Below, in pieces: positions 29 through 38,580 of a DNA stretch of 39,104 nt. The stretch's first letter is position 1. Each line of letters opens with the position of its first letter. Made by a program: the position numbers and the translations under genes. This DNA comes from Spirochaetaceae bacterium (GTDB lineage: Bacteria > Spirochaetota > Spirochaetia > DSM-27196 > Alkalispirochaetaceae): contig REEH01000132.1 in the NCBI GenBank assembly GCA_007695175.1, positions 1 through 39,104 of the forward strand, in the 5' to 3' direction. The notes below the pieces were generated by a model. It was not told where the DNA came from. It saw nothing but the letters and a program-made list of their open reading frames with translations, and searched no databases.

Positions 29-58
29 TTGACCACATCGGGGAGCTGTCCCTATAGT
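29..58 (+). promoter_or_regulatory. Promoter of metG operon, possibly leaderless
   Basis: A -35 hexamer TTGACC (29-34) and a -10 hexamer TATAGT (53-58) are separated by 18 nt and lie directly before metG. Only 8 nt separate the -10 box from the ATG at 67, so transcription should start at or within about 3 nt of the start codon. The only purine run nearby, GGGGAG at about 40-45, lies upstream of the -10 box and so could not be in the mRNA. The promoter call is by inspection. Confidence 0.6.
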
Positions 59-66
59 GGTGCGTT

Positions 67-2325
67 ATGAAGAAACGCCTCATCACCAGCGCGCTCCCTT
101 ATGTCAACAACATTCCCCACCTGGGCAATCTCGTCCAGGTGCTTTCCGCGGACGTCTTTGCCCGTTTCTGCCGTTCTCGCGGGTACGAGACACTTTACGT
201 GTGCGGTACGGACGAGTACGGTACCGCCACGGAGACGCGAGCGCGGGAAGAGGGAATCACGCCGGCGGAGCTTTGCTCCCGGTACTACGAGATTCACACG
301 GACATCTACCGGTGGTTTGAGATCTCCTTCGACAAGTGGGGCCGCACATCCACCCCCGAGCAAACTGCGATCGTGCAGGACATCTTCCTCAAGCTGCACG
401 CCGCGGGATATATCCAGGAGCGCACGATCGAGCAGCTCTACAGCGAGAAATCCCGCATGTTCCTGGCGGACCGGTACGTACACGGCACGTGTCCGCGCTG
501 CGGATACGGAGATGCCCGGGGAGATCAGTGCGAGAGCTGCGGAGCACTCCTTGACCCGATGGAGCTGGTCGAGCCGCGCAGCGCCCTGGACGGATCCACC
601 CCGGTAGTCCGGGAAACGACTCACCTCTACATCGATCTACCCGCCATCCTTCCAAAACTCCAGGCGTGGATGGCGGAAGCGAGCGTGCGCGGCCGGTGGG
701 CGCGCAACGCGGTTCGCATGACCGAGGCGTGGATACGGGACGGTCTCAAGGAGCGCGCCATCACGCGGGACCTGAAGTGGGGGATACCCGTGCCGTTGAA
801 GGGGTTTGAGGAAAAGGTCTTCTACGTGTGGTTTGACGCACCCATCGGGTATATCTCGATCACGGCCACCCTGACCGACCGGTGGGAAGAGTGGTGGAAG
901 AATCCCGAGGAGGTAGAGCTCTTTCAGTTTGTAGGAAAGGACAACATCCCCTTTCACACTGTCATCTTTCCCTCCTCGCTTCTGGGAAGCGGTGACAAGT
1001 GGACGATGCTGCACCATATGAGTTCCACGGAGTACCTTAATTACGAGGGCGGGCAGTTCTCCAAGAGCAAGGGCATCGGAGTTTTCGGGACCGACGCCCG
1101 GGAGACGGGAGTACCCGCGGACGTGTGGCGCTTTTACATGTTCTACAATCGGCCCGAGACGAGCGATTACACATTCACCTGGGACGACTTTAAGGAGAGA
1201 GTCAACGGTGAACTGATCGGCAACCTGGCTAACCTCGTTAATCGTACCACTACCTTCCTGGCGCGCTTCTACGACGGCCGGGTGCCCGAGATCGACGCTG
1301 CCTCCGGCGATGGGAGGGACTTCTGGGAGGCGGTACGGGCCCGGGAGAAGGAAATTACAGAGGCTCTTGAATGGGCGGGGCTGCGGGAAGGTTTCCGCGG
1401 CGTATTCGCCCTCTCCTCCTATGGAAACCGCGTCTTCCAGGGGGCGGAGCCATGGAAAACGCGTACGACGGACCCGGAGGGGACGCATCGTCTGCTGGGC
1501 AACCTGATATACCTCGTACGCGACCTGGCTATCCTGGTGGAACCGTACATGCCCGCAACGGCCGGACGGATACGGGCGATGCTGAGCGGCGGACACGCCT
1601 CCGGCGAGGGGGGAGGCTGGACGTGGAGCGATCTGGGAAATCCCCGGGGCCTTACGCAAATCGGGACGCCGGAGATACTCTTCCAGCAGTTGCCGGATGA
1701 ACTGATCGCGGACCTGCGGGAGCGGTTTTCCGGCAGCCAGGCCGACCGAGCCCGCCGGGCCGGCGCGGTGAAGGAAGCGGAAGCGCCCCCGGCGCCCCCG
1801 GCGCCCCCGGCGCCCCCGGAGGAACGGTTCGCGGCAGCCCTGGAGCTCCGCGCCGCCCGGATCGTCGAGGTCAACCAGCACCCGGAGGCGGACAAACTCT
1901 ACATCGAGAAACTCCAGGATGGCACGCCGGAGGGCCGCACCATCGTGAGCGGCCTGGTGGGACACTACACACCGGAGGAACTGCTGGGCAGGACGGTCGT
2001 AATCGTGGCGAATCTGAAGCCCGCCAAGCTCCGGGGGGTGAAGAGCGAGGGAATGCTCCTGGCCGCCTCCGCCGGAGAGGGAGCGGACGCGATCGTAGAT
2101 GTGCTCTTCCTGGAGGACGCCGAACCGGGGAGCCGGGTGATCCTGAAGGGGCAGGTCGAGAATGCCGGCCGTGACGTTTCATTGAAACGCCTCAAGATCG
2201 AGGACTTTTTCGCTGTACCGATCCGGGCCGTCGGGGGAGAAATCATGGTAGGCGCTACCCCCCTTGTGAGCGACACCGGCGAATCGCTGCGGTCCCGACG
2301 GGTCAGTGACGGCACCGTCGGTTGA
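67..2325 (+). CDS. metG: Methionyl-tRNA synthetase with C-terminal tRNA-binding domain
   Basis: Cytoplasmic class I aminoacyl-tRNA synthetase that charges tRNA-Met with methionine (752 aa). The HIGH-type motif is HLGN at residues 18-21 after PYVNNIP, and the KMSKS-type loop is FSKSKG at 331-336. One zinc knuckle is formed by Cys142, Cys145, Cys155 and Cys158. An Ala-Pro-Pro linker (about 573-584) joins the anticodon-binding domain to a C-terminal EMAPII/Trbp111-like tRNA-binding OB domain (about 610-730), a module common in bacterial MetRS that helps dimerisation and tRNA capture. The ATG at 67 gives the canonical MKKRLITSALPYVNN start. It is the first gene of a plus-strand run with the FemAB-like gene 8 bp downstream. 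Identity is very secure. Confidence 0.97.
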   Translation: MKKRLITSALPYVNNIPHLGNLVQVLSADVFARFCRSRGYETLYVCGTDEYGTATETRAREEGITPAELCSRYYEIHTDIYRWFEISFDKWGRTSTPEQTAIVQDIFLKLHAAGYIQERTIEQLYSEKSRMFLADRYVHGTCPRCGYGDARGDQCESCGALLDPMELVEPRSALDGSTPVVRETTHLYIDLPAILPKLQAWMAEASVRGRWARNAVRMTEAWIRDGLKERAITRDLKWGIPVPLKGFEEKVFYVWFDAPIGYISITATLTDRWEEWWKNPEEVELFQFVGKDNIPFHTVIFPSSLLGSGDKWTMLHHMSSTEYLNYEGGQFSKSKGIGVFGTDARETGVPADVWRFYMFYNRPETSDYTFTWDDFKERVNGELIGNLANLVNRTTTFLARFYDGRVPEIDAASGDGRDFWEAVRAREKEITEALEWAGLREGFRGVFALSSYGNRVFQGAEPWKTRTTDPEGTHRLLGNLIYLVRDLAILVEPYMPATAGRIRAMLSGGHASGEGGGWTWSDLGNPRGLTQIGTPEILFQQLPDELIADLRERFSGSQADRARRAGAVKEAEAPPAPPAPPAPPEERFAAALELRAARIVEVNQHPEADKLYIEKLQDGTPEGRTIVSGLVGHYTPEELLGRTVVIVANLKPAKLRGVKSEGMLLAASAGEGADAIVDVLFLEDAEPGSRVILKGQVENAGRDVSLKRLKIEDFFAVPIRAVGGEIMVGATPLVSDTGESLRSRRVSDGTVG
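1783..1818 (+). repeat. Four tandem 9-bp units inside metG
   Basis: The 9-bp unit GCGCCCCCG is repeated four times without interruption and encodes (Ala-Pro-Pro)4 in the linker before the tRNA-binding domain. Each unit is a multiple of three, so copy-number change would keep the reading frame and only alter linker length. Confidence 0.9.
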
Positions 2326-9406: not shown

Positions 9407-10346
9407 CCTGAAACTCTTTCATGTCTTCCTCATTGAGGTAGACCTTCATGCTCAGGGGTTCCCAGAATTTCTCCATCTCCGGGGGCACCCTTTCCTTGAG
9501 CTCCTGGAAGAGAGGCAGCTCCTCGCTGAACTCCTTTTCCCGCAGCACCTGCTGAATTATCTCAAGGTGGGGTTTGAGGAAATCCCGGGCCCGGTGGAGA
9601 AAGGGTATGGCTCGGCGCCGTGCTCCCGCTTCCAGGTCAAGCGGCGCGAGGCATACGGTGCGGAACTTGCTGTTGAAGGGGAAGTAGGGATAGAGCCGCT
9701 TGCCTCGGGGTATCATGAGCTTGGTGAAGAATTTCGTGAGGTCGCTGTCTATCCAGATCCCCTGGACGAAGTATCCCCGGCCCGTTTCACCGATCCACGT
9801 TTCGGATATCAGTTCCTCCACGAAAAGAACGGTGGGATTGTGTTCCGCCCCCTCCAATCCTCGAAGGGGGATCACATTGGCGTCAATAATCAGCTGGTCC
9901 GTGCGGTAAACGGGAGTCGTGTCGTTCGTGCCCCGGGTTATCACTTCATGCTGCTGGGGGCGGAAGACGAGGTCGATCTTCAGGTGAAAGAGATAGAGCT
10001 GGTCGTTGAGACGGAAGAGGCGAAAAAAGGCAGGCCGCAGCACCTCCGCGGGATCAAAGAGGTACTGTACGTCCCGGAGTATGTCTGGAATAAGGCGTTT
10101 CAGGCGCCCCACCAGCTCGCGCAGCGTGATGAGATACTGCGGGGACGGGTCCGATCGGCGGATGTCATGGTGAATGGAAAAGGAGGGTACCTCGAGGGGC
10201 TCCGCCAGCTTGAGGAAAAAGTCTTCCGACTGGTTGAAGTGGCGCGTGTACGCTACTCCCTCACCCTGTTCCTCCCGCAGAAGGGCGTCGATTTTCTCGT
10301 CCCGGGCGTGTATGCGGATGAGTCCGTGGGTCTGCACCTTTTCCAC
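9390..10346 (-). CDS. Conserved-looking cytoplasmic protein of unknown function
   Basis: I do not recognise this 318-aa protein. It has no signal peptide or membrane segment, is rich in charged residues, and carries runs such as DEKIDALLREEQGEG near the start, DDTTPVYR-like beta segments in the middle, and a helical, glutamate-rich C terminus (FSEELPLFQELKERVPPEME). Overlap with murD (17 nt) argues for co-expression. The frame extends to a TTG at 10400, but I prefer the GTG at 10346. There a TTGCGT-N17-TATTTT promoter-like pair stands exactly 6 nt before the codon, and no Shine-Dalgarno precedes the TTG. The start remains uncertain. Confidence 0.6.
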   Translation of the reverse strand: MEKVQTHGLIRIHARDEKIDALLREEQGEGVAYTRHFNQSEDFFLKLAEPLEVPSFSIHHDIRRSDPSPQYLITLRELVGRLKRLIPDILRDVQYLFDPAEVLRPAFFRLFRLNDQLYLFHLKIDLVFRPQQHEVITRGTNDTTPVYRTDQLIIDANVIPLRGLEGAEHNPTVLFVEELISETWIGETGRGYFVQGIWIDSDLTKFFTKLMIPRGKRLYPYFPFNSKFRTVCLAPLDLEAGARRRAIPFLHRARDFLKPHLEIIQQVLREKEFSEELPLFQELKERVPPEMEKFWEPLSMKVYLNEEDMKEFQVVLQE

Positions 10347-10402: not shown

Positions 10403-10431
10403 TTGTTATTTCGGGTATTGCGAGGTACAGT
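10403..10431 (+). promoter_or_regulatory. Candidate leaderless promoter of the FecR-domain gene
   Basis: TTGTTA (10403-10408), 17 nt, TACAGT (10426-10431), 6 nt, then ATG at 10438. The predicted transcription start coincides with the A of the ATG, and no Shine-Dalgarno precedes it. Confidence 0.55.
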
Positions 10432-10437
10432 TACGGT

Positions 10438-11685
10438 ATGAGCCGGTATCCTGCGGTATTGCTGATCCTTTTTCTGTCCCTGTTTGTGTTGGTATCGATG
10501 CTGGTGCCGGTGTCGCTGCGCGCGCAGGATCGGAGTGAGGCCTACGCCTTCATAATCTACGCCGAGGGGTATGATCTCTCCATTTTCCGCAACGGAGAGC
10601 TCAACACCTACGATGTGCTGGTGGACAACGTGGTGGGAATGCCCCTGCTGGCGGGCGATCTCGTCCAGACGGACGCCCAGACGTTTGTGGAGATCCAGGT
10701 CATGCCGGCCCGGACCGTCGTCAAGGTGGCGGAGAACACCACCTTCGAGATCGAGCGCCTCGGTGGCAGCGGTGGGGGTACCTTCAACATGACCTACGGG
10801 CGACTGCGAGCCCGGGTCGAGCGAGTCACACAGCAGGATCCCTTTGAGGTCCGCGGGTTTTCCGCCGTCGCCGGCGTCCGGGGCACCGATTTCGGATTTG
10901 ACTCCGTGGTGGAGCGGGAGAGCGCGAGCGAGCTGAGGACGCGGGTCTATGTTTTCGAGGGCGAGGTTGACGTGAGCGATCGGCCGCCGGAAGGATTGCC
11001 CGAGGAGGTTCAGACCGTGCGCGTCGCGGCCAACCAGATGGTCAACGTCACAACGGAGGTGCCCGACATTCCTCCCACGATCGATGCGCAGCCTGATGAA
11101 GCGCGGCCGGACCCCGCGCTTGTTCCGACGCGGCGGGTTGTCTTTCAGCAGGAGGAAATCGAGCCGGAGATCCAGGAGTTCTGGCAGCGGGAGACCTTTC
11201 GGGAGGAGCCGGTGGATCCCGATCTGGTGGACGAACGCTTTCCCGGTATAAACGCACGGGTCCAGCAGCTTTCCGAGGAACGGCGCCGGTACGAGGAACT
11301 GCAGCGTCTGCGCCGCGAGGGTCTGCTCATGGCTCCGGATGAGCTGCTCGCCGAGGCGGCGGGCCCCCTGGAGATGGAACCGGAACGGCAACCCGTGGGT
11401 GTTGATCTGGAGGGACCTCGCCCCTCGGACAGGGCGCAGCGGCTTGTTCTGCTTCCCCAGGAGGATCTCTCCCTGCGGCGCCAGACGCGCATGGCCGGGC
11501 ACTGGCTCCTGGGCCTGGGGATAACGATGGAGCTGGCGGGTGCGGCGACCGCCTGGTTCGGCCAGGGATACCGCTCCTTTTCCGATCTCGAGAGTGGCGG
11601 CCCCGGGGTGGCCATGATGACTGGAGGCGGCGTCTTCATCACCTCCGGCCTGATTTCCTACATTATCAGTATCATCGCGGATTAG
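10438..11685 (+). CDS. Exported FecR-domain protein with C-terminal membrane segments
   Basis: A 415-aa protein with an N-terminal signal peptide/anchor (SRYPAVLLILFLSLFVLVSM to SLRAQD). A FecR beta domain follows (about 45-185): LLAGDLVQTDAQTFVEIQV, VKVAENTTFEI, TFNMTYGRLRARVERV, FEVRGFSAVAGVRGTDFGF and VYVFEGEVDVS. This matches the stand-alone FecR domains common in spirochaetes, not a TonB-type sigma regulator. A charged, Glu/Arg-rich stretch (about 225-340) follows, then two hydrophobic segments at the C terminus (about 355-380 and 390-413). Its role is unknown; FecR domains outside iron transport probably act as envelope sensors or scaffolds. The stop overlaps the convergent kinase-like gene by 14 nt. 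Confidence 0.8.
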   Translation: MSRYPAVLLILFLSLFVLVSMLVPVSLRAQDRSEAYAFIIYAEGYDLSIFRNGELNTYDVLVDNVVGMPLLAGDLVQTDAQTFVEIQVMPARTVVKVAENTTFEIERLGGSGGGTFNMTYGRLRARVERVTQQDPFEVRGFSAVAGVRGTDFGFDSVVERESASELRTRVYVFEGEVDVSDRPPEGLPEEVQTVRVAANQMVNVTTEVPDIPPTIDAQPDEARPDPALVPTRRVVFQQEEIEPEIQEFWQRETFREEPVDPDLVDERFPGINARVQQLSEERRRYEELQRLRREGLLMAPDELLAEAAGPLEMEPERQPVGVDLEGPRPSDRAQRLVLLPQEDLSLRRQTRMAGHWLLGLGITMELAGAATAWFGQGYRSFSDLESGGPGVAMMTGGGVFITSGLISYIISIIAD

Positions 11686-16744: not shown

Positions 16745-18054
16745 TCTCCGGTGCGCTCGTCTCTCCGGCGCAACGCCGCGGCGTGGGTATAAAAACCCTC
16801 GTAATCGGCCAGGGCTATTACGTGGTCCCGCATCAGCTCGTATCCGCGAGGTGTTATCTCCACGATGGACGACGCACGCATGAAGTCCCGCACCGAAACG
16901 GGTCCGTACGTGCGGGACCATCCCCCGGTAGGCAGCACGGCGTTGGGGCCCGCCGCGTAGTTGGCGAGGCTGAAGGCGGAGTGCGGACCGATGAGGATTT
17001 CCGCCGCGTTCGTTATGCCCGCCGCAACAGCCCGGGAGTCGGCGCAGTTGATCATCAGGTGCTCCGGGCCGTATTCGTTGACGATTTCCAGGGATTCCGC
17101 CTCCCCGGAGGTGAGTATGATCCCCCCGTATCCGGAGAAGACCTCCCTGAGGAAGGTGCGCCGCGGTTCCGGCACATCCGCGAGCAGCCTCTCCACGTGG
17201 ACCGCCGTGGCGTGGGCGAGTTCCTCCGAATCAGTCACCAGGAGGGCCGCGGAATCGCTGCCGTGCTCCGCCTCGATCATCAGGTCCAGAGCTACCCGCC
17301 AGGGATCGGCGCTGCCGTCGGCCAGAATGATCGCCTCCGAGGGACCGGCGGGGACACCCGTATCGACAATGTCCCCCACGATGCGTTTGGCGGCGGCGAC
17401 CCAGGCGCTGCCGGGTCCCACAATCTTGTGAACGGCAGGAACGCTCGCCGTTCCGTAGGCGAGCGCAGCCACTGCCTGCGCTCCACCCACGCGGTATACG
17501 TGCTCCACGCCGCACCGGCGGGCCGCGTAGAGAACCGCCGGATCCACGGCCCCGTCCGGTCCGGGAGGCGTCGTTACCGCTATCAGGGGCACCCTCGCCA
17601 GGGACGCGGGGACGGCCAGCATATAGAGCATGGAGGGGAAACTCCCTCGCCCGCTCGGTACGTAGAGGCCAACTTTTTCTATGGGCGTGAAGCGCTCCGA
17701 AGCAATGACGCCGGGCCTCACCTCCACGCTCTTCATCGATTCCTCCGCCTGGGCACGGTGGAAGCGACTCACGTTCTCGATGGCGAAATCCAGGGCGTCC
17801 CGGACGGGCTCGTCCAGAGTCCGGGAGGCGACTTCAAACTCCTCGGGCTGTACCGCGATACCGCGGTGGGCGATATCGATACCGTCAAGCTCCAGGGTCA
17901 GGCGCAGAAGAGCCGAGTCGCCCTCCCTGCGAACAGCCTCCACCAGGGGTTTCGCTTTCCGTACAATCGCGTCGATATCGATCCGGGACCGCGCCATGAT
18001 CCGGTCCCGCTCCTCCCGGGAGAGCGTTCTCCATCGTTTCGGTTCCAGTCTCAT
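16741..18054 (-). CDS. Histidinol-dehydrogenase-family enzyme with substituted zinc ligands
   Basis: A 437-aa member of the HisD family, which normally oxidises L-histidinol to histidine with NAD and zinc. The fold is clear: KVGLYVPSGRGSFPSMLYM, VGGAQAVAALAYGT, KIVGPGSAWVAAAKR, GVPAGPSEAIILAD and catalytic NEYGPEHL (Glu331, His332). Aligned by eye with E. coli HisD, the zinc ligand Gln259 is Glu261, His262 is retained (His264), Asp360 is Asn365 (LANYAAG instead of GDYxxG), His367 is Ala372, and His419 is retained (His424). No other his gene is nearby. It may therefore oxidise another alcohol, like other HisD homologues, so I leave the symbol empty. ATGA overlaps link it to both flanking genes. 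Confidence 0.85.
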   Translation of the reverse strand: MRLEPKRWRTLSREERDRIMARSRIDIDAIVRKAKPLVEAVRREGDSALLRLTLELDGIDIAHRGIAVQPEEFEVASRTLDEPVRDALDFAIENVSRFHRAQAEESMKSVEVRPGVIASERFTPIEKVGLYVPSGRGSFPSMLYMLAVPASLARVPLIAVTTPPGPDGAVDPAVLYAARRCGVEHVYRVGGAQAVAALAYGTASVPAVHKIVGPGSAWVAAAKRIVGDIVDTGVPAGPSEAIILADGSADPWRVALDLMIEAEHGSDSAALLVTDSEELAHATAVHVERLLADVPEPRRTFLREVFSGYGGIILTSGEAESLEIVNEYGPEHLMINCADSRAVAAGITNAAEILIGPHSAFSLANYAAGPNAVLPTGGWSRTYGPVSVRDFMRASSIVEITPRGYELMRDHVIALADYEGFYTHAAALRRRDERTGE

Positions 18055-18506
18055 AGGGCGGGATCATACCACGGGGGTGTTTCCGCCGGTAGACGGCGGG
18101 CGTGAATCGCATCAAAAAGAAGCAGAAAGAGACCTTGCGTGAGGATGCCCAGGCCGGTACCGCGCGCAAAGGGATAGCCCGCGGGAACCAGGTAAAGGCC
18201 GGCGCCGACAAGGCAGTAGAGAATGTCCATCCGTGCGTTTATGCGCAGGAGACGGCGCAGGCGCACCGTTTCGCGCACCTGGCGATACTCGTCGGGCCGC
18301 AGCTGCGCTGCGCGCAATGATTTCCGCCCTCCCAGGAAGGCAAGGACGGCGTCCACCGCACCCCATATCAGCAACTGGAGGGCAAATCCGCGTACAAAGG
18401 GTTCCAGGGCTGTGACCAGGAGCGTTACGCCAAGAAGTATCGACGCGAGACTCCATGCCATCAACTGTACCGCCAGGCGCCAGTAGTGCCGGTTAATATC
18501 GATCAC
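18051..18506 (-). CDS. Small four-helix membrane protein of unknown function
   Basis: A protein of about 151 aa with four hydrophobic helices: LMAWSLASILLGVTLLV, FALQLLIWGAVDAVLAFLG, ILYCLVGAGLYLVPAG and LGILTQGLFLLLFDAIHA. Between helices 2 and 3 is an Arg-rich cytoplasmic loop (LRPDEYRQVRETVRLRRLL). I do not recognise the family. I chose the GTG at 18506, which gives VIDINRHYWRLAVQL just before the first helix. An ATG at 18614 in the same frame would add a non-helical stretch that overlaps the divergent fabV start, which is less likely. It is the first gene of the minus-strand operon and overlaps hisD by ATGA. Confidence 0.6.
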   Translation of the reverse strand: MIDINRHYWRLAVQLMAWSLASILLGVTLLVTALEPFVRGFALQLLIWGAVDAVLAFLGGRKSLRAAQLRPDEYRQVRETVRLRRLLRINARMDILYCLVGAGLYLVPAGYPFARGTGLGILTQGLFLLLFDAIHARRLPAETPPWYDPAL

Positions 18507-18576: not shown

Positions 18577-18606
18577 TGGCCAGAGCATACTGATTCATGG
18601 TATTTT
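18577..18606 (+). promoter_or_regulatory. Candidate promoter of fabV
   Basis: TGGCCA (18577-18582), 18 nt, TATTTT (18601-18606), then 8 nt to the ATG at 18615. Each hexamer matches consensus 4/6. No Shine-Dalgarno lies in the 8 nt before the ATG. Weak, but the spacing agrees with other starts in the window. Confidence 0.35.
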
Positions 18607-18614
18607 TGACCCAT

Positions 18615-19784
18615 ATGATTGTAAAACCGATGATCCGCAACAATATCTGCATGAACGCGCACCCCCTGGGGTGTGAGAAGAGCGTGGAGCGCCAGATCGA
18701 GTATGTCCGGAAGCGGGGCAGGATAGGGGGACCACGCAACGCGCTCGTGATCGGTGCCTCCGCAGGTTACGGAATGGCCAGCCGGATCACCGCGGCCTTC
18801 GGTTCGGAGGCGGCAACGATCGGCGTCGCCTATGAATCGCCCGCGAAAAGTGGCCGGACCGGTTCGGCCGGCTGGTACCTGGACCAGGCGTTCCAGAAGT
18901 TTGCCGATCAGGCGGGTCTGCCGCACCGGAGCATCATAGGTGATGCCTTCTCCCATGAAGTGAAGCAGCAGGTGATCGATGCGATCCGGGAGATTATGGG
19001 GGGAACCGTGGACCTGGTTGTGTACAGTCTGGCCTCGGGAATCCGGGTGGATCCCGATACGGGTGAGATGTACCGTTCCACCCTCAAACCGATCGGCCGG
19101 GATTACTCTTCGATAACGCTCGACGGAAAGACGGGAGAGCTCACGGAGGCGATGGTGGAAGCCGCTACGGAAGAGGAGATCCGGCAGACCGTCAAGGTGA
19201 TGGGTGGTGAGGACTGGGAGTTGTGGATTCGGGCACTGCGGGAGGCCGGCGTGCTTGCGGAAGGCGCCGTAACGGTCGCCTATTCCTATATCGGGCCGTC
19301 CATAACATTTCCGCTCTACCGCGACGGCACGATCGGTCGCGCCAAGAAGCACCTGGAGGAGACGGCTCGTCGCCTGGACGGGGAACTGCAGGGACTGGGC
19401 GGTCACGCCTGGGTCTCGGTCAACAAGGCTCTGGTAACGCGAGCCAGTGCGGTGATCCCCGCGGTACCACTGTACCTGGCGCTACTTTATCGCGTAATGA
19501 AGCGGAAGGGGATTCACGAGGGTACGATCGAGCAGTGCTATCGGCTCCTGGCGGAACGGCTCTACACGGGCTCGCCCCCGGAGGTGGATGCGGAGGGGCG
19601 GATTCGCATCGACGACTGGGAAATGCGCGACGAGGTGCAGCGGGAGGTTCAGACGGCCTGGGACTCGGTGACGCCTGACAATGTGGAGGAGCATGCCGAC
19701 ATTGAGGGATTCAAGAGCGATTTCCTTCAGATTCACGGCTTTGGTTTTCCGGAAATCGATTATGAAGCGGATGTGGCTATATGA
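18615..19784 (+). CDS. fabV: FabV-type trans-2-enoyl-CoA/ACP reductase
   Basis: NADH-dependent enoyl reductase of the FabV/TER family, which reduces trans-2-enoyl-ACP or -CoA in the last step of fatty-acid elongation, or crotonyl-CoA in fermentation (389 aa; family about 395-400). The start MIVKPMIRNNICMNAHPLGC is the family signature and fixes the ATG at 18615 over the in-frame ATG at 18597. The nucleotide-binding loop is GASAGYGMASRI, and the active-site region is AYSYIGPSITFPLYRDGTIG followed by RAKK, with the Tyr-x8-Lys pair. Treponema TER is a CoA-specific close relative, so substrate choice is open. It is coupled to the helicase gene by a 4-nt ATGA overlap. Confidence 0.93.
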   Translation: MIVKPMIRNNICMNAHPLGCEKSVERQIEYVRKRGRIGGPRNALVIGASAGYGMASRITAAFGSEAATIGVAYESPAKSGRTGSAGWYLDQAFQKFADQAGLPHRSIIGDAFSHEVKQQVIDAIREIMGGTVDLVVYSLASGIRVDPDTGEMYRSTLKPIGRDYSSITLDGKTGELTEAMVEAATEEEIRQTVKVMGGEDWELWIRALREAGVLAEGAVTVAYSYIGPSITFPLYRDGTIGRAKKHLEETARRLDGELQGLGGHAWVSVNKALVTRASAVIPAVPLYLALLYRVMKRKGIHEGTIEQCYRLLAERLYTGSPPEVDAEGRIRIDDWEMRDEVQREVQTAWDSVTPDNVEEHADIEGFKSDFLQIHGFGFPEIDYEADVAI

Positions 19785-21533: not shown

Positions 21534-21563
21534 AGGACAAGTCCTTCCTAAATAGATTATAAT
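21534..21563 (+). promoter_or_regulatory. Promoter of the 21573 lipoprotein gene
   Basis: AGGACA (21534-21539), 18 nt, and a perfect TATAAT (21558-21563), followed by only 9 nt before ATG 21573. No Shine-Dalgarno is present (the bases before the ATG are TTCAGTCAG). Confidence 0.6.
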
Positions 21564-21572
21564 TTCAGTCAG

Positions 21573-22265
21573 ATGAAACCGAGTGCTTTTTTCCGTCGGC
21601 CGGCGCTGACCGTACTCGTGTCCGCCGTCCTTCTGTTGGCTGTCTCCTGCCCCTATGAACTTCCGGACTTTGACAACCCCGTAGATCCCAGGAACTCTCC
21701 CGGACCGGGCGGAACGCTGATCGCGGAGGGCATCATCCTGTATACCGGTTTCGGAGAACTTGACGTCAACGGAACTGTGGTTGCCGCCTTTGACCGTGTG
21801 ATCGTAACGGGTGGTCCCGACGAAGAGGAACCGGACATCAGTGTCTTCAGTCTTTTCTTCGTCCAGGCGGGGATGCTGGATGAGGCCAACCTGGTCTTTT
21901 CCGGGGAGGGACCCATGGTCTATATCGACCTGGATGAATGGTCAGGTCACGATCAGCCCCGCTCCCTCTCCTATGCGCTGGACCAGGGCTTTCCGACCTC
22001 CACGGAAGGCGTTATCGTTGAGCTGGCGCTCGCCGAAAGTGTGATCCTGGACGGCTATGTGGGCGAGTCGCTCGACCCGTTTCTGGAGTCGAGCGGACAG
22101 GTCGCATTCTACCTAGAGGATTCCCCCGAGATCACGACGATTGACACGGGTTTTTTCGGTGCGGGATTCGATGCGGGCACCGGCCCGGCCGGAGGCGACA
22201 CTTTTTCGATGTTTTTCGCGGACGAGAGTGATGATTTGTGGTTAATGGTGTTCACCTTCAACTAG
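21573..22265 (+). CDS. Acidic lipoprotein of unknown function
   Basis: A 230-aa lipoprotein. The signal peptide MKPSAFFRRPALTVLVSAVL ends in lipobox LAVSC, giving lipidated Cys26 or nearby. The mature part starts with PYELPDFDNPVDPRNSPGPG, a Cys-x(n)-DNPVDP-type start that I know from other spirochaetal lipoproteins. It is very acidic (many Asp/Glu, few Lys/Arg) and beta-rich, with several GF/GY turns. I do not recognise a domain. It ends just before the rpsD -35 box, so rpsD is independently promoted. Confidence 0.75.
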   Translation: MKPSAFFRRPALTVLVSAVLLLAVSCPYELPDFDNPVDPRNSPGPGGTLIAEGIILYTGFGELDVNGTVVAAFDRVIVTGGPDEEEPDISVFSLFFVQAGMLDEANLVFSGEGPMVYIDLDEWSGHDQPRSLSYALDQGFPTSTEGVIVELALAESVILDGYVGESLDPFLESSGQVAFYLEDSPEITTIDTGFFGAGFDAGTGPAGGDTFSMFFADESDDLWLMVFTFN

Positions 22266-23040: not shown

Positions 23041-23073
23041 GGAGCGGGGTCGCACGAGCGGCTCCGTTTTTTT
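23041..23073 (+). terminator. Intrinsic terminator of rpsD
   Basis: GGAGC (23041-23045) pairs with GCTCC (23061-23065), extended by CGC/GCG across a 5-nt bulge with an ACGA loop. A run of eight T begins at 23067. It is a clear Rho-independent terminator. Confidence 0.85.
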
Positions 23074-23077
23074 TGGG

Positions 23078-23107
23078 TTCAAACAATTGAGTGAAACTGC
23101 CGATAAT
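23078..23107 (+). promoter_or_regulatory. Candidate leaderless promoter of the regulator gene
   Basis: TTCAAA (23078-23083), 18 nt, GATAAT (23102-23107), then 6 nt to ATG 23114. It begins just after the rpsD terminator, and no Shine-Dalgarno is present. Confidence 0.5.
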
Positions 23108-23113
23108 CCCTTC

Positions 23114-24388
23114 ATGAGACGCTTCCCTGTGGTCAGCAGCGACACGGAGCTGAATGATCGGGTCACGCGAATTTGTGAGCGCTTCGGCAGCATATATGAA
23201 CCGGTCTTCCTGGCCAACCTGGAGGAAGCACTGGAGTATATCCGGTATGAGCTGCCGGAATTCCAGCTGGTCCATTTCTCCGATTCCATTGTAGATGGCG
23301 TAGAGCTGATACAAGCGGTGACCGAGGATCCCTGGTTGCATTACGGGGGAGTCATCGGAGTCTACGCGCGAAAGGACGCGCGGCGCATTGAGGAGCTACC
23401 CCGGGAAACCAATATCGTGACGATGATACGCCGGGGAGAGTTCGTGGAGACCTTCTTCCGGGTCCTGGTGCTTCTGCACAAGAACCGGCAGATCCTGTTT
23501 CAACGGGACATCCAGATGGACTTCATCGGGACGATCCACGGCAACCTGGAAATGGACAACGATCCCTACAACGCCCGCACCTACGCTTCGCTCATCTCCA
23601 ATTACCTCTTCAACTCAAACTACATCGACATCGAAATGCGGGACCGGCTGCACGTGGCGCTCTTCGAGCTGATCATGAACGCGATCGAACACGGCAACTG
23701 CGGGATCTCCTACGAGGAGAAGAACGACTACCTTCACGACTACGGTGACATCATCCCCCTTATCCGGGAGAAGTGTCGTGATCCGGAGATCGGGCGCCGC
23801 CGTGTGGCGGTCTCCTATACGATCGATGCGGAGCAGTCCTCCTTTACCGTGGAGGACGAGGGAGAGGGTTTTGACTGGCGATCCCGCATGGAAGACCGGG
23901 AGACCAACCTGGATCTTCACGGACATGGAATCCGGATGACCCAGCACTATTTCCGGACGCTGAAGTACAACGAGAAAGGCAACACCGTTTCGCTGGAAGT
24001 CCAGCATGAGAAGCAGGCCAACGCCGCGCCGGGACTCTTTTCGCAGCAGCAACCGGAGGATTTCTCCCCCGGAGAGGTGATCTTCCACGAGGGCGACGTC
24101 TCCAACGACTTGTACTACATCATAAGCGGGAGTCTGGACGTGGTGAAGGAGGGGCAGCGAATCGCCACGCTCACGCCGGATGATATTTTCCTGGGGGAGA
24201 TGTCCTTTCTGCTCGGTAATCGCCGTTCCGCCGCCGTTGTCTCCCGGACCCAGAGCCGCCTGATCCGGGTAACCAAGAACGCCTTTGTATCGGGTATCCA
24301 GCGACAGCCCCATTATGGCATTTTCCTGGCGCGTCTGCTGGCGCAGCGACTTTCACGGATAAACGTTCAGGTTGCCACCTCGGGGTAA
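23114..24388 (+). CDS. Regulator: receiver-like, HATPase (anti-sigma-kinase type) and cyclic-nucleotide-binding domains
   Basis: A 424-aa soluble regulator. Residues 1 to about 125 look like a receiver fold that lacks the phospho-acceptor aspartate pattern. Residues about 170-300 are a GHKL ATPase of the RsbW/HATPase_c_2 type: ELIMNAIEHGN (N box, Asn189), FTVEDEGEGFDW (Asp248) and LHGHGIRMTQHYF. Residues about 312-424 are a cyclic-nucleotide-binding beta roll: FSPGEVIFHEGDVSNDLYYI, DIFLGEMSFLLGNRRSAAVV with the family Glu362 and Arg371 in place. So cNMP binding and a serine-kinase switch are plausible, but neither ligand nor target is known. I start at ATG 23114, since upstream in-frame ATG 23033 would put the rpsD terminator inside the gene; a TTG at 23087 is an alternative. 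Confidence 0.82.
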   Translation: MRRFPVVSSDTELNDRVTRICERFGSIYEPVFLANLEEALEYIRYELPEFQLVHFSDSIVDGVELIQAVTEDPWLHYGGVIGVYARKDARRIEELPRETNIVTMIRRGEFVETFFRVLVLLHKNRQILFQRDIQMDFIGTIHGNLEMDNDPYNARTYASLISNYLFNSNYIDIEMRDRLHVALFELIMNAIEHGNCGISYEEKNDYLHDYGDIIPLIREKCRDPEIGRRRVAVSYTIDAEQSSFTVEDEGEGFDWRSRMEDRETNLDLHGHGIRMTQHYFRTLKYNEKGNTVSLEVQHEKQANAAPGLFSQQQPEDFSPGEVIFHEGDVSNDLYYIISGSLDVVKEGQRIATLTPDDIFLGEMSFLLGNRRSAAVVSRTQSRLIRVTKNAFVSGIQRQPHYGIFLARLLAQRLSRINVQVATSG

Positions 24389-24438: not shown

Positions 24439-24644
24439 AGCACCGCTTCGTACCCTATAGCCTTCACGAAACCCTGTATCTTCTCCACCGTGGCGGGGTT
24501 GCCGTCCCACTCCAGGTGGATCTCTCCGGTGCCGCGATCAACCTGAATTTGGTCCACTCCCTTGATTCTCCGACCCATGTGTTCTATGCCGATCGAGCAG
24601 GATGTGCAGGTCGCTCCCTGCAGGTCAAGAATAGCCTGTTCCAT
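24429..24644 (-). CDS. Heavy-metal-associated (CopZ-like) domain protein
   Basis: A 71-aa single-domain HMA protein with metal-binding motif TCTSCS (Cys13 and Cys16) and a beta-alpha-beta-beta-alpha-beta pattern. Such proteins carry Cu(I), or bind other soft metals, in the cytoplasm. No copper ATPase or repressor is adjacent, so the metal is unproven. It follows plsC on the same strand by 16 nt. A TATTTT hexamer stands 6 nt before its ATG, so it may also have its own promoter. Confidence 0.8.
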   Translation of the reverse strand: MEQAILDLQGATCTSCSIGIEHMGRRIKGVDQIQVDRGTGEIHLEWDGNPATVEKIQGFVKAIGYEAVLRE

Positions 24645-24660
24645 GTCCAGAAAATACTGA

Positions 24661-25908
24661 TCATTTTTCTCGGAGTAAAGTTGAGCCCGGCCCAGCGGTG
24701 ATCGCCAGGATAGTCTGCTCGAATCGGTACGCCGAGGGGCCGGGGGGCCTGATCCGCAGGACGTAAAGGCGGCCCCCCGCGTAGAATTCCAGTTGGTGCG
24801 TGTACTGTACGGTGAGTCCCGATATCTCTTTCACGCCGATTCTTCGCGTGCACCCCGGCGCGAGGGTCTTCCGCGTGGCGGAGGCGGTCAGTGTCAGGTG
24901 CTCCCGGGTCAACTCCGCCCGGACCGTTCCCCAGGACCTGAGCGGACGGGAGCGGTGCCCCGTGAACAATGTCGCCGCGGGAGAGACGCAGGGCAGGGGC
25001 GAGTGCTCGCCGTCGGGCCGTTCCCTGTCGCCCCGTACCGCATTCCGAAGCGTCTGGAGCTGAAACTCGTTCCACTCCGGCAGCCGTCGGAATGGTCCCC
25101 CCTGGAGCGTGCCGGAGGGCAGGAAGTATGTTTCCGTACCACAGGCGCCGCATCGTGCGATCTCTCCCCGTGACTCGAAGGTGTCCCATCCACCGCAGGA
25201 AGGGCAGAAGAAGAGCACCGTTCCCGCGCCGCCGGCGCGATTTCTTCCGACAAAGAGCAGGCGGTGCTCCTCCTGCCACCGGTTGTCATCAAAGAAGAGC
25301 GCCTTTTCTATCCCCAGGGCCAGCTCCCGCCGTCCGCCCGTTTTGACCTCGGCCCCGGAGAAGAGGGTGGTCAGTTCGATCTCCAGAAGACCCCGGCGGA
25401 ACGAAACAGCCCAGCGCGGTTTGGAGAGGTACGCTCCCTTTAGACGCACCGCGACTACGGGAACACCCAGGATGCGGACCAGCTTCTCCGTGCCGGGAAG
25501 GAGAGCCCGACTCCGTCCGTCCCAGGTGCGCTGCCCCTCGGGAAAGAAACCGACGGCGTTTCCGTTCCGCACAAGTGCCTGCATTGCCCGGATGCTCTCC
25601 ATGTCGTTTCGTGACTTCGCCTTGGGCACCGTCCCGGCCAGGCCCATGAGAAAGCGCATGATCCGGGACCGGTAGTTGCCATCGGCGGCGATAAGGTGGA
25701 CCGGGTGCCGGAAGGCAAAAGCTACCAGAAAAGGGTCCCAGAAATTGGCGTGGTTGCTCAGCACCACAAAGGGGGGCCTCATGAAACGAAGGTTCCGGTC
25801 TCCGCTTATCCGCACGCGGTAGCGCCGGAAGAGCCAGGGCTTGAGCGTGGCCAGCAGAAAGAGCTGCAGGAGGCGTGATGCCCTGGGATGGGGTTCTTTC
25901 CCGTTCAC
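24661..25908 (-). CDS. PlsC-type acyltransferase with C-terminal zinc-ribbon domain
   Basis: A 415-aa protein. Residues 1 to about 210 are a 1-acyl-glycerol-3-phosphate acyltransferase domain: catalytic HX4D motif NHANFWD (His53, Asp58) and acceptor-binding FFPEGQRTWDG (about 123-131). PlsC converts lysophosphatidate to phosphatidate at the inner membrane. After it comes a zinc ribbon, CPSC (235-238) and CGAC (253-256), then a beta-rich domain of about 150 residues (LTREHLTLTASATRKTL, QLEFYAGGRLYVLRI) that may be PH-like. This fusion is unusual; ordinary PlsC is about 240 aa. I chose the GTG at 25908. The frame continues to an ATG at 26037, but that would translate the promoter and the tandem repeats. 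Confidence 0.82.
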   Translation of the reverse strand: MNGKEPHPRASRLLQLFLLATLKPWLFRRYRVRISGDRNLRFMRPPFVVLSNHANFWDPFLVAFAFRHPVHLIAADGNYRSRIMRFLMGLAGTVPKAKSRNDMESIRAMQALVRNGNAVGFFPEGQRTWDGRSRALLPGTEKLVRILGVPVVAVRLKGAYLSKPRWAVSFRRGLLEIELTTLFSGAEVKTGGRRELALGIEKALFFDDNRWQEEHRLLFVGRNRAGGAGTVLFFCPSCGGWDTFESRGEIARCGACGTETYFLPSGTLQGGPFRRLPEWNEFQLQTLRNAVRGDRERPDGEHSPLPCVSPAATLFTGHRSRPLRSWGTVRAELTREHLTLTASATRKTLAPGCTRRIGVKEISGLTVQYTHQLEFYAGGRLYVLRIRPPGPSAYRFEQTILAITAGPGSTLLREK

Positions 25909-25914
25909 GGCGGT

Positions 25915-25943
25915 ACTGTAGCGTCTCCGGACGGGGTGGGCAA
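25915..25943 (-). promoter_or_regulatory. Candidate leaderless promoter of the plsC-like gene
   Basis: On the minus strand TTGCCC (25943-25938), 17 nt, TACAGT (25920-25915), 6 nt, then GTG 25908. Hexamer, spacer and gap match the FecR-gene promoter almost exactly. No Shine-Dalgarno is present. Confidence 0.5.
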
Positions 25944-26330: not shown

Positions 26331-27435
26331 ATGCTGCAGGAACTTACGACACCGCTGGAAACGCTGAAGGAGAATGTCCGCAACACCTGGAGGTATCTTT
26401 GACCCCGATGAGATAAGGACCCAGATTGCGGACAAGGAAGCGGCCACGGGAGACCCGGCGTTCTGGAACGACCAGAACAAGGCGGAAGCGACCATGACCG
26501 AGATCAAGCGACTGCGTGACCTCATTGAGCCCTGGGAGACGCTTGTCGCGGATATCGAGGATACGGAAGCTCTCCTGGAGCTGGCCCTTGAGGCCGGCGA
26601 CGATTCACAGGAGGCGGAGATCCGGGCCGCCCTGGAGGACCAGAGGAACCGCTACGAGAAACTGCAGCTCAAACAGCTTCTGCGGGAAGAGGCGGATGGG
26701 GCCGATGCGTTCCTCACGATCCACAGCGGTGCCGGCGGTACCGAGGCGTGTGACTGGGTGAGCATGCTCTACCGCATGTACCGGCGCTGGATCGATTCCC
26801 ACGGATATCAGTCCGAGGTAATAGACCTGCTGGAGGCGGAGGGTGGTATCAAGTCCGTGACGATCGAGGTGAAGGGCCCCTACGCCTTTGGCTACCTCAA
26901 GGCGGAGGCCGGTATCCATCGTCTGGTACGCATCTCCCCCTTTGATTCCAGCGGCCGTCGCCATACCTCCTTCGCATCCGTTTACGTCTCCCCGGTGATC
27001 GACGACACGATCGATGTGGACCTCAAGATGGAAGAGGTCCGGGTGGATACGTACCGCGCCAGCGGCGCCGGTGGGCAGCATGTCAATAAAACGGACTCCG
27101 CCGTTCGTATGACCCATCTCCCCACCAATATCGTCGTTCAGTGCCAGAACGAACGGAGCCAGCACAAGAACCGCGCCGTGGCGATAACCATGCTCAAGAG
27201 CCGGCTTTACGAGTACTACCGGCAGGTGCAGGAAGCGGAGCAGGCCTCCAAGGCGATAGAGAAGAAGGATATATCCTGGGGACACCAGATACGCTCTTAT
27301 GTCTTCCAGCCCTACACGATGGTGAAGGACCTGCGCACGTCCGTGGAAACGGGCAACGTTCAGGCGGTAATGGATGGAGACCTTGATCCCTTTATCGAAG
27401 CGTTTCTCAAGCACCAGGCCGGGCAGGCGGTATAA
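26331..27435 (+). CDS. prfB: Peptide chain release factor 2 with programmed +1 frameshift
   Basis: RF2 recognises UGA and UAA stops and triggers peptide release (367 aa after the shift). The zero frame runs 23 codons from ATG 26331 to the in-frame TGA at 26400-26402. A +1 shift at CTT then continues in the frame read from GAC 26401 to 27435. The catalytic GGQ lies in ASGAGGQHVNKTDSAVR, and the RF2-specific SPF codon-recognition motif in RLVRISPFDSSGRR. The frameshift autoregulates RF2: when RF2 is scarce, slow UGA decoding favours shifting. An ATG at 26374 would give a continuous frame but lacks a Shine-Dalgarno and the true N terminus. Annotators may report only 26374-27435. Confidence 0.96.
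26388..26402 (+). promoter_or_regulatory. RF2 programmed frameshift site
   Basis: TGG AGG TAT CTT TGA: an internal Shine-Dalgarno-like GGAGG sits 3 nt before the slippery CTT, followed by in-frame TGA and C. This is the same layout as the E. coli prfB site. Confidence 0.93.
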
Positions 27436-34312: not shown

Positions 34313-34318
34313 TACACT
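34313..34318 (+). promoter_or_regulatory. -10-like hexamer of the mcsA operon
   Basis: TACACT with 7 nt to ATG 34326. I see no good -35 or Shine-Dalgarno. It fits the leaderless spacing of other genes but is weak alone. Confidence 0.3.
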
Positions 34319-34325
34319 CCCGGTA

Positions 34326-34814
34326 ATGGCGGAACGGGAGCAGCGAGTCAGAATAATTCGTGTCGTGGGGGGCAGGCGTCAGGAGATGGAGATCTCGGCT
34401 GCCCGCGCACGAGAGCTGGGGATAACCGGTGAGAGCCGTCGGGACCCGACGGTGGCATATCTCCTTGAGGGCGTCCTGGCGTGGCATCGTACGGGGGGGC
34501 GCGCCGAGAATGAATGTCCCCGCTGCGGCACGACGCAACGGGAAATGGTGCTCTACCGCCGCGCCGGGTGTTCCCGTTGTTACGAGGTGTTCCATCGCAC
34601 CGTTGACCGGCTGCTTCGTCTGGACACTTCCGATAAGGGAATCGCTCACCGTGGTCGAGTACCCCGGAGACTGGACCGCTTCCGGCGCATGTTCGTGGAA
34701 CGGGAGGATCTGCTGTCCCGCCTCTCCCTGGCCGTGGATGATGAGGATTTTGAGACTGCCGCCACACTCCGGGATCGCTTGAGAGGTCTGGACCGGGACG
34801 ATGTCGAGGCCTGA
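34326..34814 (+). CDS. mcsA: McsA-like zinc-finger/UVR-motif protein
   Basis: A 162-aa protein with two CxxC zinc pairs (Cys64/Cys67 and Cys82/Cys85) and a C-terminal UVR motif (about 130-155, LSRLSLAVDDEDFETAATLRDRLRGL). In Bacillus, McsA activates the McsB arginine kinase and helps ClpC-dependent stress proteolysis. The N-terminal 55 residues are not the usual McsA start, and the protein has two zinc pairs instead of four, so it is a short version. It is the first gene of the mcsA-mcsB-like-clpC operon. No ctsR repressor gene is present here. Confidence 0.83.
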   Translation: MAEREQRVRIIRVVGGRRQEMEISAARARELGITGESRRDPTVAYLLEGVLAWHRTGGRAENECPRCGTTQREMVLYRRAGCSRCYEVFHRTVDRLLRLDTSDKGIAHRGRVPRRLDRFRRMFVEREDLLSRLSLAVDDEDFETAATLRDRLRGLDRDDVEA

Positions 34815-34819
34815 TCCCG

Positions 34820-35902
34820 ATGCTGACGCATACGATCATACCCCGGCTTGAGGGGTGGTTCTCCCTGGGAGGGGAGGACTACGATGTTGTCGTCGCGACG
34901 AGTTTTCACCTGGCACGGAATATCGAGGATCTTTCATTCACCGATACCTTCGGGCCCGATGATGCGGTGACGCTGCGGAAGCGGGTGGAGCAGACCTTCC
35001 TGAACATGCCCGGCGAATACCGCCTGCTGGATCACGACACTCTCCGACCGGAGGCGATCCGCTTCTATCATTCCCGCGAGATGCTCCGTTATGTCGAGGC
35101 GGGAGCTGTTTCGATCCTCTCTCCGGACGACACGATCGCGGTTCATCTTGGTGGAGAGGATCATCTCACGCTCACGAGTTTTACCGGTGGATGGAATCCG
35201 GAGGAGGCGCTCCACCGGGTGCGGGTGCTTGATCACGGGCTGGAAGAACACCTGCCCTGGGCCGTATCGCTCCGGTTGGGGTATCTCTCTCCCAGGGTCG
35301 AGAGTGTGGGTACGGGACTGGTAGCGGAGGCGGTGCTCTTTCTGCCGGCTCTCCGGCAGGGAGCGGGAATACCCGCAGCCCGGGGTTTGGACACCGACGG
35401 GACTGCAACCGGAGGAAAACGGGTGGGCGGTCCATTGCCGGGCCTTTCGCAGGACCGGGTGGAAATCCACCAGGTATCCTCCGGCGCTTTCCTCGAGTCT
35501 TCGCTCTACCGTGTGCGCTGCCGCGCCCGCTTTCCGGAAGGGGAAGAGGATACGATCGCATTGCTTGAAGAGACGGTACAGCGGTTAGTACATTATGAGC
35601 GGGAAGCGCGGGAAAGACTCCGCGGGGAGCACCTGCTTACGGTGAGCGACGCGGTCAATCGCGCGCGGGGGCTGCTCGGCAGTGCCCTGACGCTGACGCA
35701 GGAGGAAGCGGTAGCACAGGCGGCTCTCCTGCGTCTTGGAGCTTCCTGCGGGTTGATTGAGAGCCCCGGGCCCGAGGGGGCCACGGTTCTGCTCTACGCC
35801 GCGGATGATGACGCGGTGGCGCTTCTCGGGGACGGGGAGGGTGCTTCGCCGGACGAGCGACGCGCTCGATTGATTGGAAGTATATTAAGGGATCGCGTTT
35901 AG
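34820..35902 (+). CDS. McsB homologue that has lost the arginine-kinase active site (predicted pseudokinase)
   Basis: A 360-aa protein of the McsB/guanidino-kinase family by position and fold. Compared with Bacillus McsB as I remember it: SSRIRLARN becomes ATSFHLARN, NEEDHIRIQ becomes GGEDHLTLT, GYLTSCPTNVGTGLRAS becomes GYLSPRVESVGTGLVAE, and the RGIYGEGSEA loop cannot be found. In its place is a non-matching stretch of about 40 residues (GIPAARGLDTDG to VEIHQVSSG). So the phosphate-binding arginines and the active-site cysteine appear absent. The C-terminal helical half (HYEREARERLRGEH onward) still resembles McsB. It probably acts as a ClpC adaptor rather than an arginine kinase. It starts 5 nt after mcsA and ends 17 nt before clpC. 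Confidence 0.78.
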   Translation: MLTHTIIPRLEGWFSLGGEDYDVVVATSFHLARNIEDLSFTDTFGPDDAVTLRKRVEQTFLNMPGEYRLLDHDTLRPEAIRFYHSREMLRYVEAGAVSILSPDDTIAVHLGGEDHLTLTSFTGGWNPEEALHRVRVLDHGLEEHLPWAVSLRLGYLSPRVESVGTGLVAEAVLFLPALRQGAGIPAARGLDTDGTATGGKRVGGPLPGLSQDRVEIHQVSSGAFLESSLYRVRCRARFPEGEEDTIALLEETVQRLVHYEREARERLRGEHLLTVSDAVNRARGLLGSALTLTQEEAVAQAALLRLGASCGLIESPGPEGATVLLYAADDDAVALLGDGEGASPDERRARLIGSILRDRV

Positions 35903-35919
35903 CGACAGGAGTGTAAGGG

Positions 35920-38580
35920 ATGTTCAAGGGTTTGACGCAACGAGCGCAGCGCGTGCTGCAGATACTGGCTCAGGATGAAGCCAAGCGATTTCACTCCGAT
36001 CAGCTGCTACCGGAGCACATCATGCTGGCGCTTCTCAAGGAGGGGGGCGGACTCGGTTACAAGGCTCTGGAGAAGCTGATGATCGATCCGGCCAGGATGC
36101 AGATCGAGCTGGAGAGCGTGATTCCCCGCAAGCGCGGCGGCTTCACCCTTGGTGATGTACCGCCCTCTCCGCGGGGACGAAAGGTGCTTGAGGATTCCGC
36201 CGAGGAGGCCAGAAATCTGGGTCACGAGTACATCGGTACGGAGCACCTCCTGCTGGCGTGCAGTCGCGAGGAGGGAGGGCGGACCGCTCAGTTCCTGCAG
36301 GAGTTCCAGGTTACCACGGAAACGCTCCGGGAGGTGATCGCGGACCTGAGCGGTAGCGCCGGCAGGGGACAGGTCGGCTCCGGCGCCTCGAGCTCCACCT
36401 CCGGGGCATCCTCGTCAAGCCAGACGCGCCGTCGTGTTGCTACGGCGCAGTCGGGAAAGAAGACCACTCCTACCCTGGACGAGTTTTCCCGGGACCTCAC
36501 CACTCTGGCGCGGGAAAACAAACTGGACCCGGTCGTAGGACGGGCCCGGGAAATAGAGCGGGTGATCCAGATTCTGGCGCGGCGGACCAAGAACAATCCG
36601 GTCCTCATCGGGGAGCCCGGCGTGGGCAAGACCGCGATCGTGGAGGGACTGGCGCAGAAGATCGTGGATGGAACCGCTCCGGAAGTCCTGGTGGGCAAGC
36701 GTGTGCTCACCCTGGATCTGGCGAGCCTCATCGCCGGAACCAAGTATCGCGGCGAGTTTGAGGAGCGCCTCAAGCGGGTCATGAAAGAGATTACCACCAA
36801 CGGCAACGTAATACTCTTCATCGATGAGCTGCACACCATAATCGGCGCCGGCGGCGCCGAGGGTGCGATCGATGCGAGCAACATGCTCAAGCCGGCCCTC
36901 TCCCGGGGAGAGATGCAGTGCATCGGCGCCACGACGCTCAATGAATACAAGAAGTACATAGAGAAGGATGCCGCTCTGGAGCGGCGCTTCCAGTCGATCA
37001 TCGTCCAGGAACCCTCCGTGGAGCAGACGATCGAGATCCTGAAAGGCATAAAGGAGCGCTACGAGCAGCACCACAACGTCTCCTATACCCCGGGCGCGCT
37101 GGAGGTTGCTTCAGTCATGTCCCGGCGGTACATCTCGGACCGGTTCCTTCCGGACAAGGCAATCGACCTGATGGATGAAGCGGGCAGCCGCAAGCGGATC
37201 AGCAACAGCGTACGCCCCACGGAGATAGCCGAGCTGGAGCAGCAGATCGAGGTTCTCAACGGGGAGAAGCTTGCCCTGGTAAACAGCCAGAATTACGAGC
37301 GCGCCGCGGCGGTTCGGGACGAGGTACGACAGCTCAAGGACCGTGTGGAGAATCTGCGAAACCAGTGGAAGGTAACTCTCCGCAGCGAGCAGAGTGTGGT
37401 GGACGCGGAGGATATCAACTACGTCCTGAGCGAAATAACCGGGATCCCCCTGGTGCGGATCGCCCAGTCCGAGAGCGACCGTCTCCTGGACATCGAGAAG
37501 GATCTGCACCGCCGTGTAGTGGGTCAGGACGAGGCTATACAGGTGATCGCCTCCTCAATCCGCCGGTCCCGCACCGGCCTGAGTGCGCCGGAGCGGCCTA
37601 TGGGTTCCTTCATCTTTCTCGGGCCCACCGGAGTCGGCAAAAGCCTCCTGGCAAAGTCCCTGGCGGAGTTTCTCTTCGGTTCCTCCGACGCGCTTATCCG
37701 CATCGATATGTCGGACTACATGGAGAAGCACAACGTCTCCCGCCTTGTGGGTGCTCCTCCGGGCTACGTGGGCTACGACGAGGGCGGGGTGCTCACGGAG
37801 AAAATCCGCCGGAAACCCTACAGCGTCGTTCTGCTCGATGAGATCGAAAAAGCACACCCGGATGTCTTCAATATCCTGCTCCAGATTCTGGAGGAGGGCG
37901 AGCTGCAGGACAACCTGGGTCACAAGGTTAACTTTCGCAATACCGTGATGATCATGACCTCCAACGCGGGAGCCCGGGAAATCACGCGGGAAGCCTCGGT
38001 CGGCTTCCGAACGAACGACGGAATACTGGAACACCGCGAGATCCAGGCCTCGGCGATGAACGAGCTGCGCCGTCGCTTCCGGCCGGAGTTCCTCAACCGT
38101 GTTGACGAGATCGTCGTCTTTCACAGTCTCTCCGACGAGCAGGTCCGGAATATCCTGGGTATTCTCCTGGGTGAAATGCAGATGCGTCTTGCCTCCCGGG
38201 AGATCACGCTCGAAGTGAGTCGGACCGCCCGGGATCTGCTCATAGAGAAAGGCTACGACGTCAAATACGGAGCGCGGCCGCTTCGCCGGACGATTCAGCG
38301 GGAGATAGAAGATCCCCTGGCGATGGATCTTTTGCGCAATCGCTTCGGTGAGGGCGACCACATTCTCGTGAGCGTCCGCAAGGGATCCTTCACGTTTCGC
38401 CGCAAAGGCGGCAAACGGGAGAAGACCGAGGGGGAGAAGAGTCTCGTGGCGAGTGATGCCGGGAAGAGTAGCGCCGGGAAGAGTAGCGCCGGGAAGAGCG
38501 AGACGGGGGAGGGCGACGTGTCCGCCGGTGACACGGGCACTGCGCCCTCCGGTGAGTTCCGCCTGGGAGACCAGGGGTAG
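35920..38580 (+). CDS. clpC: ClpC-type AAA+ unfoldase
   Basis: HSP100 unfoldase that feeds substrates to ClpP (886 aa). It has an N-terminal Clp repeat domain (1-140), a Ser/Gly-rich linker (about 148-172), and NBD1 with Walker A GEPGVGKT (231-238) and an [18 protein letters not shown] segment. A short middle domain with a UVR-like [20 protein letters not shown] (about 450-475) marks ClpC rather than ClpB. NBD2 has GPTGVGKS (568-575), [16 protein letters not shown] and a sensor-2 GARPLRR. The C-terminal tail (about 825-886) is low-complexity, with Ser-Ala-Gly-Lys repeats. The ATG has AGGAG 8 nt upstream. No ClpP gene is in the window. Confidence 0.95.
38458..38499 (+). repeat. 15-bp tandem repeat in the clpC tail
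   Basis: GCCGGGAAGAGTAGC at 38458-38472 and 38473-38487, then a partial copy at 38488-38499. It encodes Ala-Gly-Lys-Ser-Ser repeats and keeps frame. Confidence 0.9.

Follow-up and report, generated by a model that had tools for sequence, protein, structure and literature searches.

The metG promoter and other boxes in the window

The window is one whole contig (C251) of 39,104 bp, taken from an assembly of 3.72 Mb in 256 contigs. The contig begins at metG, so the upstream neighbour of this gene in the window's organism lies outside the sequence. The metG gene encodes methionyl-tRNA synthetase (67..2325, + strand) and is predicted to be leaderless, with a leader of 0-2 nt. It is preceded by a -35 element TTGACC (29..34, +) and, after an 18-nt spacer, by a -10 element TATAGT (53..58, +) that ends 8 nt before the ATG at 67. 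The preliminary description had reported this TTGACC-N18-TATAGT-N8-ATG arrangement at 29-69 and the lack of a usable Shine-Dalgarno sequence, and the upstream sequence bears out both. A TAG in frame with metG lies within the -10 box itself, and the N-terminus MKKRLITSAL is conserved from residue 1 among orthologs; therefore, the start codon is fixed from both sides. The nearest named relatives of this metG belong to Spirochaeta and Spirochaetales assemblies.

The metG promoter was compared across 27 orthologous loci, leaving out L022 (a duplicate of L079) and L076 (genome G007). All loci keep TTGAC (TTGTC in one), with a -35/-10 spacing of 17-18 nt and a gap of 6-10 nt between the -10 box and the ATG. 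Mean pairwise identity was 0.88 for the -35 element and 0.85 for the -10 element, while the surrounding and intervening bases showed 0.29-0.37. The sole exception was L076, where a SurA-like gene ends 9 nt upstream of metG and the promoter box is gone; here the start is preceded by GGAG, a Shine-Dalgarno sequence in place of the promoter box. In G005, which belongs to the same genus as the window's organism, the SurA-like gene lies 68 nt upstream and a leaderless-type promoter is found within that gap.

Four other strong sites carry boxes at the positions reported earlier. The FecR-domain gene (Pfam FecR; 10438..11685, +), predicted to be leaderless, has TACAGT (10426..10431, +) with a gap of 6 nt to its ATG at 10438, and TACAGT, TACACT or TAAAGT at a gap of 6-7 nt is shared by the window and three same-genus orthologs (L164-L166). 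The lipoprotein gene has TATAAT (21558..21563, +) 9 nt before the ATG at 21573, and no usable orthologs were found for a conservation comparison. The plsC-like acyltransferase gene has TACAGT (25915..25920, -) 6 nt before the GTG at 25908. Its same-genus orthologs were unalignable at the N-terminus, and among plsC-like homologs from other families the box is TATACT or TACAGT, with a gap of 8-10 nt. The fourth site belongs to a regulator, described below.

Four weaker sites of the preliminary description were also seen. The UVR-motif gene (mcsA-like) has TACACT (34313..34318, +) with a gap of 7 nt to the ATG at 34326. A -10-like TATTTT precedes fabV (18601..18606, +; gap of 8 nt to the ATG at 18615), the HMA-domain gene (24651..24656, -; gap of 6 nt to the ATG at 24644) and the gene starting at 10346 (-; gap of 6 nt to the GTG). 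Single weak sites such as the one at 10346 are possibly chance matches. The G005 ortholog of the HMA-domain gene has TACATT at the same gap, with the same ACTTTAC upstream. For fabV, TGG[CT]CA-N18-TATWTT is retained in G001 and G002 with gaps of 6 and 10 nt, and the conserved FabV N-terminus starts at the called start codon. In G004 (L230), a similar GGTATTTT box is followed by a leader of about 20 nt with AGGAGG, apparently a leader gained or lost at a retained promoter. One further box, TATGAT before hisD (18063..18068, -; gap of 8 nt to the ATG at 18054), was absent from the earlier list.

Conventional leaders, as had been reported, were confirmed for rpsD, with AAGGAG, and for prfB (26331-27435), with GGGAGG before the start at 26331. 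The prfB gene has GTGACA-N18-TACAGT followed by the leader that contains this GGGAGG, and it thus provides a leadered contrast to metG.

Two side observations were made on these genes. The prfB gene retains its programmed frameshift site, with CTTTGA at 26397. At 34326-38580, the mcsA-like UVR-motif gene, an mcsB-like ATP:guanido phosphotransferase gene and a ClpC-type ATPase gene are consecutive, which in this spirochaete corresponds to an operon of the arginine-phosphorylation type.

The regulator gene (23114..24388, +) encodes HATPase_c_2 and cyclic-nucleotide-binding domains and is predicted to be leaderless. Its box GATAAT (23102..23107, +) lies 6 nt before the ATG at 23114, within TTCAA-N16-GCCGATAAT. 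CCGATANT at a gap of 6 nt was found in all seven same-genus genomes (7/7), and a TCAA-N16-[GA]CCGATA arrangement upstream of the gene (23070-23114), GCCGATA in the window, is conserved in the genus. Some other families have a CCGATA box about 20-25 nt upstream, with a longer leader. The sigma-28 (FliA) promoter consensus is TAAA-N15-GCCGATAA-like; the regulator's arrangement differs from it in the -35 part, and FliA is encoded in the genome. The box and gap were where the preliminary description had placed them, but the promoter resembles, and may be, a sigma-28 type rather than a sigma-70 one. In the genome sample, CCGATA boxes showed no enrichment near starts, and this promoter type therefore does not form a general class.

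Boxes before start codons across the genome

A metagene was built from 1.07 Mb of stretches of the window's genome (G000, 61% GC). For comparison, 300 kb of E. coli K-12 was sampled along with 400 kb each of G005 and of G012, the latter from the same order. Genes were called by codon-pair statistics alone, so starts were chosen blind to the upstream sequence. This home-made caller gave wrong starts for some genes, in the window those of FecR, the regulator and plsC; the FecR start, for example, was placed at a later ATG (10498) instead of 10438. A strict TATART scan of the phylum returned three matches and was too stringent for a genome of 61% GC, and TANNNT with a shifted-gap control was used instead. 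TANNNT is a loose motif, and about one quarter to one third of its individual matches are expected by chance.

The metagene displayed the sharp peak that the preliminary description had named as support, with 6-9 nt between motif and start. TANNNT at this gap preceded 85 of 394 operon heads (22%), against a mean of 19.7 in 100 dinucleotide shuffles (s.d. 4.5, maximum 29; z = 14), and nine 4-nt windows farther upstream, used as a second background, averaged 25. The commonest gap was 6 nt (39 genes), with the first T of the box at -12. Inner operon genes, which closely follow another gene, stayed near background with boxes in 14 of 355 (4%; 7.3 in shuffles, 7-8 expected), and genes with an upstream gap of 25-80 nt had them in 23 of 129, compared to about 5 expected. 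Internal in-frame ATGs carried TANNNT at gaps of 5-9 nt in 84 of 3903 cases (2.2%). The relatives repeated the peak (27/150 vs 6.3 in G005; 28/142 vs 8.2 in G012), and it was absent from E. coli K-12 under the same pipeline (6/139 heads vs 10.0 shuffled). An artefact of in-frame TAA or TAG stops was considered for the gap-6 peak and rejected, because TAC and TAT boxes alone gave 33, 21, 17 and 13 genes at gaps 6-9 over a background of about 6.

The boxes have the features of promoters. When 108 genes were aligned on TA...T alone, a TTGAC element emerged unselected, mostly 17 nt upstream, and 33 of the genes had TTG[ACT] at a distance of exactly 17 nt. Genome-wide, TTGAC-N18/19-TANNNT-N6-8-ATG occurred 69 times; lengthening the gap by 10 nt left 10 matches, and the reversed pattern gave 3. 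Across 13 genomes of the class, the pattern occurred 570 times in total against 179 for the lengthened gap (ratio 3.2), and over 67 genomes of other classes 1885 times against 1396 (ratio 1.35); these ratios are conservative because the lengthened-gap control itself includes real leadered promoters. Box presence also agreed between orthologs: among start-consistent pairs of G000 and G005, the G005 gene had a box in 6 of 10 pairs with a box in G000 and in 1 of 38 without (P 1e-4), and metG was among the six.

In two divergent pairs of G000, 65 and 68 bp apart (C6:28666-28730 and C32:2166-2233), both genes have a start-abutting box, with overlapping -35 hexamers (TTGACA/TGTCAA). Apart from these two striking pairs, short spacers between divergent genes showed no clear peak when examined for an excess.

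The Shine-Dalgarno core was found in 137 of 394 heads, with a strong contrast between heads with a box (2/85) and those without (135/309). This contrast is partly mechanical because a TA box fills the same few bases. Mechanical exclusion alone was nevertheless rejected as the cause, since AT-rich control hexamers at the same place left a core in 12 of 63 heads, against 1 of 82 for TAY boxes and 182 of 441 for the others. The 16S 3' end of G005 and G015, GGATCACCTCCTTTCT, retains the anti-Shine-Dalgarno CACCTCC, so leaderless and Shine-Dalgarno modes would coexist. No 16S match was found in the window's assembly, and the anti-Shine-Dalgarno is probably retained in this organism as well, judging from these two relatives.

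Proposed leaderless initiation and alternative readings

Our reading of these start-abutting, operon-head boxes is that ordinary vegetative-type promoters start transcription at the AUG or at most about 3 nt upstream, giving leaderless or near-leaderless mRNAs (probability about 0.9). In E. coli, transcription usually starts 7-9 nt after the -10 box. Since the boxes here end 6-9 nt before the AUG, we infer from this geometry that RNA polymerase, at a promoter of TTGAC, 17-18 nt and TANNNT, would start on the A of the AUG or no more than about 3 nt before it; a gap of 6 nt would place +1 on the A of the ATG. Such mRNAs would have no room for a Shine-Dalgarno sequence and would be translated without that pairing, ribosomes presumably engaging the 5'-terminal AUG, and the remaining genes would use ordinary leaders. 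These genes could have leadered mRNA as well if a second promoter lies farther upstream.

Subtracting the background leaves about 60-65 boxes among 394 heads, 18 among 129 middle genes and about 6 among 355 inner genes. From this excess we estimate the leaderless share at about 15-17% of operon heads, or roughly 1 in 6, and about 10% of all genes. The preliminary description had called leaderless mRNA routine in this organism. Start-abutting boxes are indeed recurrent, with strong support from the metagene and its controls, the unprompted -35 element and the orthologs, but an extension to most operon heads does not fit the estimated share.

Other readings of the boxes were weighed against the same data. 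Instead of promoters, the TA boxes might be AU-rich elements that bind the ribosome or S1, on mRNAs with longer leaders; for other bacteria, an AT-rich bias before starts has been attributed to S1 binding (PMC5397173). However, a translation element would be needed within operons too, whereas the boxes are confined to operon heads, and the TTGAC hexamer that appears unselected at promoter spacing also argues against an S1 element. We consider this reading very unlikely. Slightly less likely still is that the promoters are real and the annotated starts too early, with translation from a downstream codon that has a Shine-Dalgarno sequence. Composition-based start calling is error-prone, but a downstream ATG or GTG with a strong Shine-Dalgarno within the first 40 codons occurred no more often among TA genes (6/108) than among the rest (24/415), and in metG and fabV the conservation of the N-terminus from the called start speaks against downstream starts.

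The boxes could also be the product of a loose motif that matches AT-richer intergenic DNA by chance, and chance alone would indeed account for about 20-25 of the 85 matches at heads. For the set as a whole this is refuted by the z of 14 against shuffles, the sharpness of the peak, its repetition in G005 and G012, its absence in E. coli and the retention of boxes in orthologs, and its probability is close to nil.

Leaderless initiation may further be an old, gene-specific trait of Spirochaetia, with metG foremost, and genes may switch to and from Shine-Dalgarno initiation by loss of an intergenic promoter or gain of a leader. We give this proposal roughly even odds. If true, such switches would be natural pairs for comparing both initiation modes on one gene. 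In the metG, fabV and regulator families, leaderless orthologs can be matched with leadered ones to test the effect on expression. Across many genera the metG promoter has stayed next to its start codon, and start-codon prediction in these genomes should add a promoter model to Shine-Dalgarno.

Comparison with known leaderless systems

The preliminary description had supposed leaderless mRNA to be undescribed in spirochaetes, which was mistaken. In Leptospira interrogans, dRNA-seq identified about 440 leaderless mRNAs among 2865 primary start sites; these begin no more than 10 nt from the start codon, about half of them less than 2 nt away (PMC5243855). Zheng et al. (2011) predicted leaderless genes in 6 of 18 Spirochaetes genomes, at an average of 3.9% (1.8-6.9%) (PMC3160421). 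Leaderless genes are thus a known kind in the phylum. Beyond Leptospira, our search of papers available without subscription found no measured leaderless sets for Borrelia, Treponema or Spirochaeta, and no literature linking metG to leaderless mRNA in spirochaetes. The present data add a promoter architecture that is clear and strong in this class, together with conservation and switching at the gene level. By prediction, leaderless transcription is extended from Leptospira, the only measured spirochaete found, to an uncultured or little-studied order.

As in L. interrogans, many operon-first genes appear leaderless in this member of the same phylum. Leptospira lies outside the order of the window's organism, and its leaderless mRNAs were measured by dRNA-seq, while those described here are predicted from sequence. 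Unlike L. interrogans, in which no conserved vegetative promoter motif was found (PMC5243855), the present genome has a clear TTGAC-17/18-TANNNT promoter. The boxes resemble the TA-led genes of Zheng et al., with TANNNT about 12 bp upstream in operon-leading genes and the form TAnnnT in high-GC genomes (PMC3160421). The share of about 10% of genes exceeds the 3.9% of their spirochaetes, although the methods differ and the figures are not strictly comparable. The same promoter-to-start geometry is found in the leaderless genes of Actinobacteria and Deinococcus-Thermus (PMC3160421), where they reach 20-40% of genes.
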